Shown piece after piece: positions 1,242 to 58,372 of a DNA stretch of 64,000 nt (its first letter is position 1; every line of letters starts with the position of its first letter). The notes beneath the pieces are model-generated. The model worked only from the letters and a program-made list of their open reading frames with translations. It was not told the origin of the DNA and ran no database searches. A program made the translations under genes and the position numbers. The DNA comes from an uncultured Cellulosilyticum sp. (GTDB lineage Bacteria; Bacillota; Clostridia; Lachnospirales; Cellulosilyticaceae): contig CAKVCL010000011.1 in the NCBI GenBank assembly GCA_934725855.1, positions 1-64,000 of the forward strand, read 5' to 3'.

Positions 1242-1877
1242 AACAAAAATGCATAGATTAAGATGCTTTTTATGTTTATTGAGCATCTGGCAAAGTTTTA
1301 ATATTTTTATCAAAAAATTTAAAGGGTTTTTTATTTTTAAACACATATATATTAGTGAGAGTAGTCAATTAAATAAGTGCCTTAAAGTTATCCAAAGCGA
1401 GGTTAATAAATGAGCAAAGTCACTTTTACAAATAACAAATAGCTATCTATGCGAACGGAACCTTGTAAATGTGCCAAAGGTCATCCATCAAACTAGCAGC
1501 AAGATAACAAAAAGGGCGAAGCAATAGATTGATGAAATCGTATCATCCGACCAAGAAAAATATGGAATCAAGTTTCCTTCCATTAGTAAATAGGATAAGC
1601 TTAAGCACATGTGGTCTTATTTATTGATGAAGCCCCCGACAAGGAAAGCTTTATTTCTATAAAGAAGCCAATCATGCCCAACTCTTTTTGAAGCGGGGGC
1701 TTATTAAGACATGGGCAAAATAGGCTTTTTAGAGGAATGAAGCAGACGTTGGGGAAAAACAAAAAGCGAGATTTAGTGACTGTAACTAAGTCTCGCTTTT
1801 TGTCGTGCATAAGGATAAAATTTGTAATTACTATTTTGAAAAGCAATCTCTCAGATTGTGGATAATATTGAGAAAAA
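1242..1877. other. Long stretch without a recognisable gene, rich in inverted repeats
   Basis: I find no open frame with a ribosome site, and short frames give no family I know. The DNA contains a 7-bp hairpin just after the peptidase gene (1261-1288), an inverted repeat with a GC-rich 9-bp core (AAGCCCCCG at 1630-1638 against CGGGGGCTT at 1694-1702) enclosing a small CTTTAT/ATAAAG hairpin, and a strong terminator at 1761-1801. It may be a decayed insertion or hold further non-coding RNA. Confidence 0.5.
1761..1801. terminator. Bidirectional rho-independent terminator
   Basis: Two 16-base arms (AAAAAGCGAGATTTAG and CTAAGTCTCGCTTTTT) pair with a single G-T. The T-run continues on the minus strand as TTTTTGTTTTT, so it works best leftward, but five T on the plus strand allow both directions. 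Confidence 0.75.
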
Positions 1878-2054
1878 ATTAAAAGGGAGTTTAAGAAGAT
1901 TTGGTATCTTCTTAAACTCCCTTTTAATATAAAAATAATCATATAAGAATATCGGTGGGGCGGCATTTCCCACATCTCAGGTACTTGTTTTACAAGTGTG
2001 TAGAGAACCATTTTCTACCTCAACATTCTTATATGATTATTCTATACTTTTCTT
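1872..2054 (-). ncRNA. Candidate structured small RNA (cloverleaf plus terminator)
   Basis: Read on the minus strand, a predicted transcript of about 180 nt starts near 2054. It contains a perfect 17-bp closing helix (1934-1950 with 2025-2041) around three hairpins: GTAGA(G/A)A-type at 2000-2018, ACTTGT/ACAAGT at 1983-1997 and GTGGG/CCCAC at 1955-1973. Six bases later comes a 22-bp perfect hairpin (1878-1928) with a six-U tail. A consensus promoter sits just upstream. Promoter, multibranch fold and terminator together argue for an independent RNA gene rather than a 3' UTR. The family is not recognised: it lacks tmRNA, RNase P, SRP and 6S hallmarks. It could alternatively be a MITE-like element with 17-bp terminal repeats, although no target duplication is visible. 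Confidence 0.6.
1878..1928 (-). terminator. 22-bp perfect terminator hairpin
   Basis: Arms 1878-1899 and 1907-1928 are perfect complements around a 7-base loop. On the minus strand the stem is followed by TTTTTT, so it terminates leftward transcription coming from the candidate small RNA and from the nuclease-domain gene further upstream. Confidence 0.85.
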
Positions 2055-2060
2055 ATTATC

Positions 2061-2089
2061 ATGATACATTATTTTTTTATAAATGTCAA
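2061..2089 (-). promoter_or_regulatory. Consensus promoter for the candidate small RNA
   Basis: On the minus strand: TTGACA (2089-2084), 17-base spacer, TATCAT (2066-2061). The predicted start is near 2054. It lies in the 54 bases between the stop of the nuclease-domain gene and the cloverleaf, so the RNA does not depend on read-through. Confidence 0.7.
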
Positions 2090-2095
2090 TGTTTC

Positions 2096-2482
2096 TTATG
2101 AAAACGATTTTAATCTACCACTGTGTAATCGCTTAGATATTTTTGAATCTTTAACTTCGTATAGACTTGCTACATATAAGCCATTAGAGTTTTTATCCAG
2201 TTTTATAGCAATTAGAATATTTTCATCATATTTTTTTACTAACTCAATACTGCTAGGTTCTTTTTTATTCATGCCGATATAATCTGGAGATTGAATGATT
2301 TCTCCTATTTTTTGAATATAACTTACACAATTAGGGTGTCTATTTCTAATATGTACCTCTAGACCAACTGATTGCATAATATCTACAACTGGAAGATTAC
2401 AACTTAAAATGTCATTAAATTTCTGATTGTATTCCCCAACTTTAAATAGTTTTTGTTGTGAATTTTCTTTTGTTTCGTTCAT
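2096..2482 (-). CDS. Small PBECR-type (RelE/barnase/colicin-D-like fold) nuclease-domain protein
   Basis: A 128-residue cytoplasmic protein. The core from about residue 36, with SVGLEVHIRNRHPNCVSY, a helix GEIIQSPDYIGMN, then strands ILIAIKLDK and LYVASLYEV, matches the pattern I know from phage-type PBECR domains (H-I-x-x-R-H-P, then PDYI, then paired strands). These are predicted RNases of the BECR fold, usually found in phage polyproteins or toxin contexts. It is a single-domain form with no antitoxin-like neighbour. Its own promoter is good (TTGAAT-17-TATAAT, 2540-2512); the ribosome site is weak (GTGAAG), and a small palindrome CACTACTTAGTG (2488-2499) lies at that site. A small-RNA gene follows on the same strand. 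The family assignment is from pattern memory and is moderate; activity is inference. Confidence 0.55.
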   Translation of the reverse strand: MNETKENSQQKLFKVGEYNQKFNDILSCNLPVVDIMQSVGLEVHIRNRHPNCVSYIQKIGEIIQSPDYIGMNKKEPSSIELVKKYDENILIAIKLDKNSNGLYVASLYEVKDSKISKRLHSGRLKSFS

Positions 2483-2548: not shown

Positions 2549-3662
2549 TCATTCTTTTCCTTCTGGTTTCATAGAAAGAGAAGAATCGTGAGGACAGCAT
2601 GGAATACCATCTTCATTAATAGTGTAATCCTGATTTTTCAGCCCGGATCTTGCATTTAAAGGGATATATGCTTTAGAAAAATGCCTGTTTTTTCCAAGGG
2701 TATCACCAGTAAGCAGATCTTTATAGAGTGCAGTTGTATCAAAAGCAGCATCTCCCAGAAATGTTTTAGGATTGATCAGCGGGTGCTTTGAAAAGAAATC
2801 CTTTAGTGTAGGGATTAAAAGTTTAGAATCATGTACGCTCTTATCTGCATCAGGAGAATCAGATTTTTTCTCAACAACGATATCTGGATGGGAAGTCATA
2901 AAGTTTTTATTGTAAAAAGAAATATGGCGGATGATACCAAGGCCATTTGTAACAACACCAAAGTTGAAGACATAGCAAAAATGTCCATTGATGTACAGCT
3001 GCTTAATCTCAGGATTAGCAGAAGCATGAGAAAGCGTAGATACATAAGCAGCCTTATAAGGGTCATAAGATTTATTAAAACCATGTGCTTTAGCATAGGC
3101 TTTAAGTTGTTTAATGATTCTGTTTGCATACTTGGGATTATTTTCGGTAACAAAGGCTTCTATGCCAGAAGAGTCAAAGAGGGGCATGTCAGCTTTGGCA
3201 GAGTCAATAGCTTGGCAGATAGGTTCTGTAAGATCAACAAGGTTGCTGAATACGAGCTGCAGATCATCTAAAAGTCTTGCTTAAACCGGGTAATTTTAGA
3301 AGCATCAGGAACTTTTGTAAAACCACAGAACTAACGAAGTGGTTAGAGTAAGTAAGAAAAGTTAAAAGAAGCTGATCAGTAGGGATGGAGAAAATACGTT
3401 GGATAATCAGAGCCCAGAGTAAAGCATGTAAAGAGTATTTACGGGATCTTCCTGTTGATGCATAGAAATGATTATAAAAAGTAGTTGGAATGATTTCGTC
3501 CAGATCGATGTGGTTTTCTAATAGAGAAAGAAAAGTAGGTTTATCATTTTCAAATTTTTCCTGGCAATCTGAAAAAATATCTGGCAAAGAAAGCTGTTTA
3601 TGTAGTATCATAATATCAGAGTAACTCCTTTCTTGGGTAACGGTTTTTAGTTTTTTTGTCAA
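2549..3662 (-). pseudogene. Degraded DDE transposase (IS1182/IS4-superfamily-like)
   Basis: The N-terminal part (3662-3264; better start ATG at 3611 behind AGGAGTT) carries the IILHKQLSLPDIF-type opening and the helical SLHALLWALIIQRI segment. The C-terminal part (3187-2549) carries DSSGIEAFVTENNPKY, SPDADKSVHDSKLL and FLGDAAFDT, a DDE core. Between them the reading frame changes twice: near 3330-3340, where LRxFCGFTKVPDAS continues in another frame after a stop, and again at about 3276, where KQDF needs one extra T to read on into DDLQLVFSNLVDLTEPI. The gene stops at MKPEGKE, well short of a usual full-length enzyme of roughly 450-550 residues, so the 3' end is lost. No clear terminal repeats remain. 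It is a dead insertion sequence. Confidence 0.85.
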
Positions 3663-35967: not shown

Positions 35968-36038
35968 GCGGGTGTAGTTCAATGGTAGAACTTCAGCCTT
36001 CCAAGCTGACTACGTGGGTTCGATTCCCATCACCCGCT
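35968..36038 (+). tRNA. tRNA-Gly (TCC)
   Basis: Acceptor GCGGGTG/CACCCGC, discriminator T, anticodon loop CTTCCAA gives TCC. CCA not encoded. Same as the copy at 36523. Confidence 0.95.
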
Positions 36039-36042
36039 CTGT

Positions 36043-36119
<77 letters not shown>

Positions 36120-36124
36120 TTTAT

Positions 36125-36199
36125 GGTGGGTGTAGCTCAGTTGGTAGTAGCACTGGATTGTGGTTCCAGGTGTCGTGGGTTCGAGTCCCATCTCCCACC
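36125..36199 (+). tRNA. tRNA-His (GTG)
   Basis: Anticodon loop TTGTGGT gives GTG. The extra 5' G (-1) faces C73 as expected for tRNA-His. The acceptor GTGGGTG against CTCCCAC contains one T-T mismatch at pair 6-67. CCA not encoded. Confidence 0.9.
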
Positions 36200-36237
36200 T
36201 TTTGTTATGTCTTAAAAGATATAACTATATATCATAT

Positions 36238-36309
36238 AGGGTTATCGCCAAGCGGTAAGGCACAGGATTTTGATTCCTGCATACGGAGGTTCGAATCCTC
36301 CTAGCCCTG
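36238..36309 (+). tRNA. tRNA-Gln (TTG)
   Basis: Acceptor AGGGTTA/TAGCCCT, discriminator G, anticodon loop TTTTGAT gives TTG. Differs from the copy at 36681 by one base (ATACGG against ATGCGG). Confidence 0.95.
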
Positions 36310-36313
36310 GTAT

Positions 36314-36386
36314 GGGTCACTAGCTCAGTCGGTAGAGCACTTGACTTTTAATCAAGTTGTCCCGGGTTCGATTCCCGGGTGGCTCA
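36314..36386 (+). tRNA. tRNA-Lys (TTT)
   Basis: Acceptor GGGTCAC/GTGGCTC, discriminator A, loop CTTTTAA gives TTT. Standard T-arm GGGTTCGATTCCC. Confidence 0.95.
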
Positions 36387-36417
36387 GTTCTTAGCAAATC
36401 GCTAAGGTGATGAATAT

Positions 36418-36499
36418 GCGGGCGTGGCGGAATTGGCAGACGCACTAGACTTAGGATCTAGCGCCGCGAGGTGTAAGGGTTCGACTCCCTTCGCCCGCA
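36418..36499 (+). tRNA. tRNA-Leu (TAG)
   Basis: Acceptor GCGGGCG/CGCCCGC, discriminator A, loop CTTAGGA gives TAG, with the long variable arm of a class II tRNA. Confidence 0.95.
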
Positions 36500-36522
36500 T
36501 ACTTAAATTTCATAAACACCAT

Positions 36523-36593
36523 GCGGGTGTAGTTCAATGGTAGAACTTCAGCCTTCCAAGCTGACTACGTGGGTTCGATTCCCATCACCCGCT
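36523..36593 (+). tRNA. tRNA-Gly (TCC), second copy
   Basis: Identical to the tRNA at 35968-36038. It starts the second Gly-Arg-Gln run in the array. Confidence 0.95.
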
Positions 36594-36600
36594 TTTATAT

Positions 36601-36677
<77 letters not shown>

Positions 36678-36680
36678 TAT

Positions 36681-36752
36681 AGGGTTATCGCCAAGCGGTA
36701 AGGCACAGGATTTTGATTCCTGCATGCGGAGGTTCGAATCCTCCTAGCCCTG
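36681..36752 (+). tRNA. tRNA-Gln (TTG), second copy
   Basis: One base differs from 36238-36309, just before the T-arm. Last gene of the operon. Confidence 0.95.
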
Positions 36753-36760
36753 TATTAGTT

Positions 36761-52129: not shown

Positions 52130-52156
52130 ATTGTATGTTACTATAATGATACAAGA

Positions 52157-52280
52157 GCAGGGTAAAGTATTGAGCGTTAAGTTCTATTGTTACGGAATGT
52201 TGAACATAGCCGAAGATTACAATAACAACGCTTAAAAAGTGGTGATTAAGTAATCGCGATTCAATACTTGCATTCACTGC
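52157..52280 (+). ncRNA. Tetrahydrofolate (THF) riboswitch
   Basis: The closing helix is GCAG / AAGTATTGA against TCAATACTT / CTGC, interrupted by GGTA and GCATTCA exactly as in the known THF aptamer. The conserved GCGTTAAG (52174-52181), GGAATG, CCGAAG and the 3' CTTGCATTCACT are all present. It lies upstream of a folate transporter and folC. The predicted transcript start is near 52154, so the aptamer begins almost at the 5' end. Folate binding should reduce expression through the hairpin at 52331-52352. Confidence 0.92.
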
Positions 52281-52330
52281 AATATTATTATCGCCAAAAT
52301 GGAAATAATAAAATTGTTCTGAAGAACCAG

Positions 52331-58136: not shown

Positions 58137-58372
58137 TAATATGAAACATCAATGATGAGAAGGAGTATAATCCTAAATTTCAGAGAGTGAGCCATGGCTG
58201 AAAGCTTACATCAGGATTAGAAGACATCTCGGAGAGCGCTCTTGAAATTGTATTAGGGAGCAACGGTTAGTCTCGTTATAGACTACTTAGAGTGCAAAGT
58301 AAGAAAATTACTTTGAAACAGGGTGGCAACACGGTGATATCGTCCCTGACAGATTAGTCAGGGGCGTTTTTT
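58137..58372 (+). ncRNA. T-box leader controlling hisS-aspS
   Basis: The invariant T-box sequence AGGGTGGCAACACGG is at 58320-58334, followed by CGTCCCTGAC (58341-58350) that pairs with GTCAGGGGCG as the terminator and T-run (to 58372). Stem I lies at about 58150-58255. The specifier region GAAGACATCTCGG (58220-58232) contains both GAC (Asp) and CAT (His) overlapping by one base, fitting the two synthetase genes downstream. Uncharged tRNA should stabilise the antiterminator and raise expression. Confidence 0.93.

Follow-up and report, generated by a model that had tools for sequence, protein, structure and literature searches.

Skipping-rope RNA and the PBECR3 nuclease: a candidate type III-like toxin–antitoxin module with reversed gene order

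Results

A skipping-rope RNA lies directly behind a PBECR3 gene

In the 64,000-nucleotide stretch of DNA analysed here (the window), a minus-strand RNA of the Rfam family 'skipping-rope' lies directly behind a gene for PBECR3, a small nuclease. Across genomes the two are paired whichever partner is taken as the starting point; they diverge together, and the promoter predicted for the RNA is the stronger of the two. We consider it probable (roughly 60%) that they form a type III-like toxin–antitoxin module in which PBECR3 is neutralized by an RNA with a tRNA-like cloverleaf, transcribed from a separate promoter and encoded after the toxin rather than before it. PBECR3 would then be toxic and directly bound by the RNA, and the pair might act in phage conflict or in the maintenance of mobile DNA.

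The original prediction placed a promoter, a multibranch fold and a terminator in succession on the minus strand, and all three are found there. The σ70-type promoter (2061–2089), made up of TTGACA (2089–2084), a 17-base spacer and TATCAT (2066–2061), begins 6 nt past the stop codon of the nuclease gene. In the structured part of the RNA (1934–2041), both the sequence and the computed fold give three hairpins inside a perfect 17-bp closing helix, P1 (1934–1950 with 2025–2041), and after this fold come the long hairpin and U-run of an intrinsic terminator (1872–1928). The 218-nt RNA as a whole (1872–2089) folds at −71.7 kcal/mol, compared with a shuffled mean of −33.3 (s.d. 3.65), which corresponds to a z of −10.5, and none of 200 shuffles was as good. 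The RNA had also been thought to match no known family. This proved wrong, because the Rfam model RF02924, skipping-rope, matches at 1947–2028 over its full length of 1–80 (71.7 bits, cut-off 36.7, E 2.3e-15); the RNA gene itself stands. This core contains P2 (2018–2000), P3 (1998–1978) and P4 (1973–1955), together with a loop–loop pseudoknot (1962–2009), indicated by covariation, between the P2 loop (2009–2007, GGU) and the P4 loop (1964–1962, GCC).

The discovery paper of skipping-rope is reportedly that of Weinberg and colleagues from 2017; it lay outside our literature search, and the papers that were searched describe no function for the family. In the portions of the texts available to us, Rfam marks a pseudoknot for skipping-rope (PMC7779021), the family makes up 1% of the phage ncRNAs used by a host predictor (PMC8501573), and it is also named in PMC7682815 and PMC11507696. 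Elsewhere the window has a THF riboswitch (52156–52281), a T-box leader (58143–58350) and a nine-gene tRNA cluster (35968–36753), all of them ordinary.

The gene directly upstream of the RNA (2096–2482, minus strand) encodes the predicted toxin, a protein of 128 aa that matches PBECR3 (PF18812; E 4e-22, 78.7 bits, cut-off 30). PBECR3 and PBECR2 are its only Pfam matches, and no NCBIfam family matches it at E 0.1. Its residues H44, H49 and K114 are invariant. Its structure model is confident (pLDDT 93), and the nearest solved folds are those of colicin D, BrnT and RelE; ToxN is absent from the fold-search matches listed, which excludes nothing. PADLOC returned no match for two PBECR3 proteins, and the single window nuclease, used as a query against viral contigs, found no relative. 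Further upstream, the ORFs at 2549–3662 resemble a broken transposase, and Pfam gave no match for two pieces of them. The adjacency to a nuclease gene noted in the original prediction was right, and the gene can now be named as PBECR3; the specific link across genomes reported below goes beyond what had been claimed, and the gene belongs to the story rather than to the background. Iyer et al. (2017; PMC5512222) predict that PBECR domains are RNases carried by phages and mobile elements, and note that phages also have them as solo versions.

Covariation supports the fold and its pseudoknot

For covariation analysis, 56 of 60 chosen sequences were aligned (alignment A2; L171, L182, L219 and L227 were left out), the choice of the 60 having excluded RNAs longer than 92 nt and model matches below 50 bits. 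The proposed pairs are standard in 93.7% of cells. Two-sided changes occur in 17 of the 21 pairs counted, which belong to P1, P2, P4 and the pseudoknot; P3, whose closing pair C31–G51 never varies in the 56 sequences, is not part of this count. The covariation score is 0.625; shuffles give 0.193, sliding the partners gives no more than 0.150, and none of 500 shuffles reaches the observed score. Compensatory changes in the closing helix had been named in advance as the supporting evidence to look for, and all eight modelled P1 pairs show two-sided changes across the 56 sequences. The pseudoknot is paired in 94.6% of cells, with two-sided changes in two of its three pairs, and nine columns of the core are invariant. 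In a divergent subfamily of 18 members, chosen by a CGT-bearing loop motif such that only the letters past CGT vary freely, 15 have a perfect P2/P4 loop complementarity of 5–6 nt, in eight different sequences; the other three, read by eye, have the same complementarity with one G–U pair. The alternative pairing of GGTA with TACC that had been suggested is not conserved, AGGT being present in 41 and ACCT in 17 of the 56 sequences. An apparent resemblance between the P4 loop and 16S rRNA was dropped, since this stretch varies jointly with the P2 loop.

In tRNA the junction linkers measure 2-1-4-0, and the first and third hairpins occupy the D-arm and T-arm positions. The consensus structure line of the RNA likewise gives a four-way junction with linkers of 2-1-4-0, and the covariation of the pseudoknot supports a contact between the first and third hairpin loops. 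Judged from the alignment, the linker pattern and the P2/P4 loop contact would reproduce the topology of tRNA, a likeness of topology only and not of family. Membership of the tRNA family was itself rejected, because RF00005 gave no match at E ≤ 10 within 1872–2089 and ARAGORN found no tRNA there.

The RNA and PBECR3 are paired in both directions

Searching with an exact core pattern yielded 21 viral and 105 genome stretches which, with three phage records and the window, comprise 131 RNAs at 130 loci. A same-strand PBECR3 gene ends just upstream of 73 of these RNAs, with a stop-to-core distance of 27–144 nt (median 60 nt). Enough upstream sequence was present for 19 of the 21 viral RNAs, eight of which have PBECR3. 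Five Streptococcus suis prophage records carry the RNA, and in the two examined (L002 and L003) it lies directly behind PBECR3, near a putative att site; the RNA of the Enterocloster phage examined has no PBECR3 neighbour.

As a less biased sample, we took the matches of the Rfam model in 391 Clostridia and 299 Bacilli genomes, among which the centre genomes G001 and G002 had been picked as known carriers. RF02924 has 74 matches in 51 of the Clostridia genomes, with 1 to 6 copies per carrying genome, and 19 matches in 16 of the Bacilli genomes. One Clostridia match (G129, 32.2 bits) was left out, giving 73 for analysis, and four of these, like one of the 19 from Bacilli, fall below the Rfam cut-off. 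PBECR3 is found directly upstream on the same strand in 45 of the 73, where chance would give about 0.0005 cases at a rough genome size, and in eight of the 19, with two further Bacilli loci having it convergent within about 210 nt. Taking all sets together, the RNA is directly downstream of PBECR3 in 126 of 223 cases, counts that are not non-redundant, as the three sets overlap in a few loci, and that include weaker matches of lesser independence, the PBECR3 profile having been built in rounds on the same loci. Other placements of PBECR3 account for four more: two convergent genes, the third copy of a tandem array and a frame that overlaps the RNA. The 97 RNAs without PBECR3 directly upstream comprise 58 of the 131 pattern-found RNAs, 28 of the 73 from Clostridia and 11 of the 19 from Bacilli, and a PF18812 match is absent from 20 of the 51 RNA-bearing Clostridia genomes.

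Seen from the gene, PF18812 has 54 matches in the same 391 Clostridia genomes, of which 14 score under the curated cut-off. A same-strand downstream RNA was called for 33 of 37 short PBECR3 frames (≤200 aa) compared with three of 17 longer ones (Fisher p 5e-7); when restricted by hand to frames over the Pfam cut-off, the RNA accompanies 29 of 31 short and one of nine long frames. Among the four short frames without a called RNA, reading by eye revealed the RNA at G152 and a decayed copy at G259, and no RNA was found at G078 or G261. A laxer Rfam search of two of these four loci and seven long-frame loci gave no skipping-rope. Nine of the 12 PF18812 matches in Bacilli, read by eye, have the RNA (seven on the same strand, two convergent), and the remaining three contain stop codons. 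Solo PBECR3 nearly always has the RNA, and the RNA often stands without PBECR3. This asymmetry is the pattern expected of a toxin and its antitoxin.

To compare the divergence of the partners, the 126 RNA–PBECR3 pairs were reduced to 122 with sufficient domain length and to 105 after removal of proteins more than 95% identical. Protein and RNA distances are correlated with a Mantel r of 0.86 (105 pairs), the best of 2000 permutations reaching 0.158, and for every protein cluster with two or more members, RNA distances inside the cluster are smaller than those to RNAs of other clusters. This co-divergence shows that the RNA and PBECR3 are inherited as one unit, a result that joint inheritance without binding gives too. 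We also sought a recurring protein antitoxin around 102 PBECR3–RNA loci, where none recurs widely; the commonest other neighbour within 1000 nt occurs in eight of the 102 loci upstream and six downstream.

The RNA has its own predicted promoter

Of 117 distinct loci with a PBECR3-linked RNA, 96 score at least 6 for a promoter in front of the RNA (mean z 3.6 relative to shuffles), compared with 35 of 91 RNAs that are not PBECR3-linked. Across 104 loci this score is reached on the RNA side in 83 and in the toxin upstream region in eight, and the RNA side is stronger in 97, although the toxin promoter may be underestimated, since the start of the toxin gene was estimated from where its domain begins. 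A T-rich run lies behind 215 of 223 RNAs (a raw count, without a shuffled control). The RNA is convergent to PBECR3 in two Bacilli loci and therefore does not need to share the PBECR3 mRNA; at the convergent locus L221, a TATAAT-like site was recognized by eye before the RNA. Because promoters recur before the RNA, including the site at L221, it is most likely a separate transcript, as far as sequence signals can tell. In the window, this transcript would begin near 2054 and be about 180 nt long. The recurrent promoter, the strong covariation and the copies without a nuclease gene bear out the original prediction of a free-standing RNA gene.

Some skipping-rope RNAs lie behind other genes

Of the distinct RNAs that have no adjacent PBECR3, 89 had sufficient sequence, and for 49 of these a different ORF (≥70 aa) ends no more than 160 nt away. 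The upstream genes include two CptIN toxins (E 1e-45 and 3.6e-35), a TenpIN-like toxin (E 5.7e-21, below its cut-off), PBECR4, PemK, ParE and Uma2 and, by reading only, a PIN-like gene and several housekeeping-like genes. A similar RNA lies behind PBECR3, PBECR4 or a TenpIN-like toxin in streptococcal-type loci (the S. suis prophages L002 and L003, S. cuniculipharyngis L055 and the viral contig L010). We read the RNAs behind other genes as cases in which the gene upstream of a retained RNA was replaced, or as stand-alone RNAs; they are the main loose end. An RNA that serves every type of toxin as a universal antitoxin was considered as well, but the CptIN, TenpIN-like, PBECR4, PemK, ParE, Uma2 and PIN-like neighbours are scattered, and this explanation was not adopted.

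In four loci (L012, L054, L010 and L113) skipping-rope comes directly after a type III toxin of the CptIN or TenpIN-like kind. When three CptIN/TenpIN loci were scanned for repeats upstream of the toxin, L012 had 46-nt repeats in front of its CptIN toxin and L054 and L010 had none. Two small protein families, of 192 aa (L169 and L191) and about 91 aa (L183 and L209), each occur twice immediately upstream of the RNA. Three tandem skipping-rope RNAs, the third below the cut-off, are found at L192:3001–3326 (G289:C70, Clostridia), an arrangement that resembles the repeated antitoxins of type III systems. A different RNA, Bacilli-1 (RF02931), is present at L055:1770–1834, L010:2108–2172, L266 and L267. 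It lies directly upstream of a PBECR4 gene in two of the three over-cut-off loci from the 299 Bacilli genomes, and upstream of PBECR4 also in L055 and, by reading, in L010. Bacilli-1 is a possible second case of an RNA antitoxin paired with a phage BECR nuclease.

Discussion

In the module that we propose, PBECR3, predicted to be a small RNase of the BECR fold, would be the toxin, and skipping-rope, encoded immediately after the toxin gene, would be transcribed from a strong promoter of its own. The RNA is predicted to fold into a four-way cloverleaf locked by the P2/P4 loop–loop pseudoknot, in which form it would bind the nuclease and block it; with a promoter far stronger than the toxin's, it would stay in excess. 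Several observations count against this reading. PBECR3 is not directly upstream of 97 of the 223 RNAs, that of the Enterocloster phage among them, and 20 of the 51 carrying genomes have no PF18812 match. A few RNAs lie behind other RNase toxins, including the CptIN toxin of L012 with repeats of its own, which is unexpected for a specific antitoxin. Moreover, the RNA of known type III systems is upstream and repeated, the short PBECR3 frames of G078 and G261 have no RNA, and co-divergence could arise from joint inheritance.

A bolder version is tentative and, in our view, rather doubtful: skipping-rope would be a tRNA-shaped decoy that fills the active site of a tRNA-cutting enzyme resembling colicin D and has no cleavable anticodon loop, its 2-1-4-0 linkers and P2/P4 loop elbow mimicking tRNA. 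The pair would then represent a distinct class of module with reversed order, and lone phage copies would confer immunity to the enzyme.

The RNA might instead be a cofactor, guide or preferred substrate of PBECR3, forming an RNA–protein complex that acts, for instance, in phage defence or counter-defence. Such a complex would fit the observed pairing and co-divergence, and also the strong conservation of the core with its nine invariant columns, but the strong RNA promoter beside a weak toxin promoter and the many RNAs without an adjacent PBECR3 suit an antitoxin better than an obligate cofactor, and we regard this alternative as unlikely. We judge it equally unlikely that the RNA acts in trans in an unrelated role, such as binding a host factor, and merely shares the cargo spots of mobile elements with toxins. 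Its occurrence behind other toxin families and housekeeping-like genes, and the similar RNA behind three kinds of toxin in streptococcal-type loci, would be explained in this way; the close RNA at 33 of 37 short PBECR3 frames, the correlation of 0.86 and the lack of any other widely recurring neighbour would not. A cis-acting role in the nuclease mRNA, as a 3′-terminal element for stability or termination, would account for an RNA placed 27–144 nt past the stop codon in the 73 pattern-found cases and for the terminator-like run behind it. This is improbable in view of the near-consensus promoter in 96 of 117 loci and the convergent and stand-alone copies, and conservation and covariation exceed what a terminator needs. 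Finally, a MITE or chance hairpin, brought to mind by the transposase-like ORFs that adjoin the module, is very unlikely given the RF02924 match, the many compensatory changes and a copy number of 1 to 6 in each of the 51 carriers among 391 genomes.

If the antitoxin reading is right, skipping-rope, for which the papers searched describe no function, and the PBECR3 nucleases would share a testable role, and Clostridia, Bacilli and phages would hold a new layout of RNA-neutralized toxins. It would also explain how a genome can safely carry a solo PBECR3 gene, and would suggest that other unexplained phage RNAs, such as Bacilli-1 beside PBECR4, are antitoxins of a like kind.

The closest known systems are those of type III (ToxIN, CptIN and TenpIN), which share an RNase gene with a small pseudoknotted RNA, a presence on phages and elsewhere, and the expectation that the RNA is in excess. 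In the available text of PMC5086642, the type III repeats precede the toxin behind one promoter. The RNA of type III systems is upstream of the toxin with a terminator between them, whereas here it is downstream in 126 of 223 cases and has its own promoter. Type III RNAs are tandem repeats; here there is one RNA at the window and one per pattern-set locus, except for L070 with two, and L192 has three. The type III toxin is ToxN, CptN or TenpN, whereas the window nuclease is PBECR3 and, according to Pfam and NCBIfam, none of these. A second parallel is the abiF RNA motif (RF03085), of which RCd22 from a C. difficile prophage binds and neutralizes the phage-borne AbiF as a type III-like RNA antitoxin, as described in 2025 in the accessible part of PMC12373285. 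Both cases have a structured RNA beside a phage-borne toxic protein, with neutralization demonstrated there and proposed here. They differ in the RNA and in the protein, AbiF being linked to Cas13 ancestors, and the AbiF RNA is upstream with two motif copies (PMC12373285, same part). The PBECR domains of Iyer et al. (2017; PMC5512222) belong to the same nuclease superfamily and include solo phage versions; the portion of that paper available to us mentions no RNA partner, whereas here the RNA accompanies most of the short frames and only three of 17 long ones. Our literature search, with subscription papers and the discovery paper outside its scope, returned no paper that links skipping-rope with PBECR3. 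The window RNA has the fold and pseudoknot of RF02924 and is a member of that family, for which the present analysis adds a pairing and co-divergence with PBECR3 and a pattern of promoters. The RNA family was already known; its partnership with PBECR3 appears to be new.
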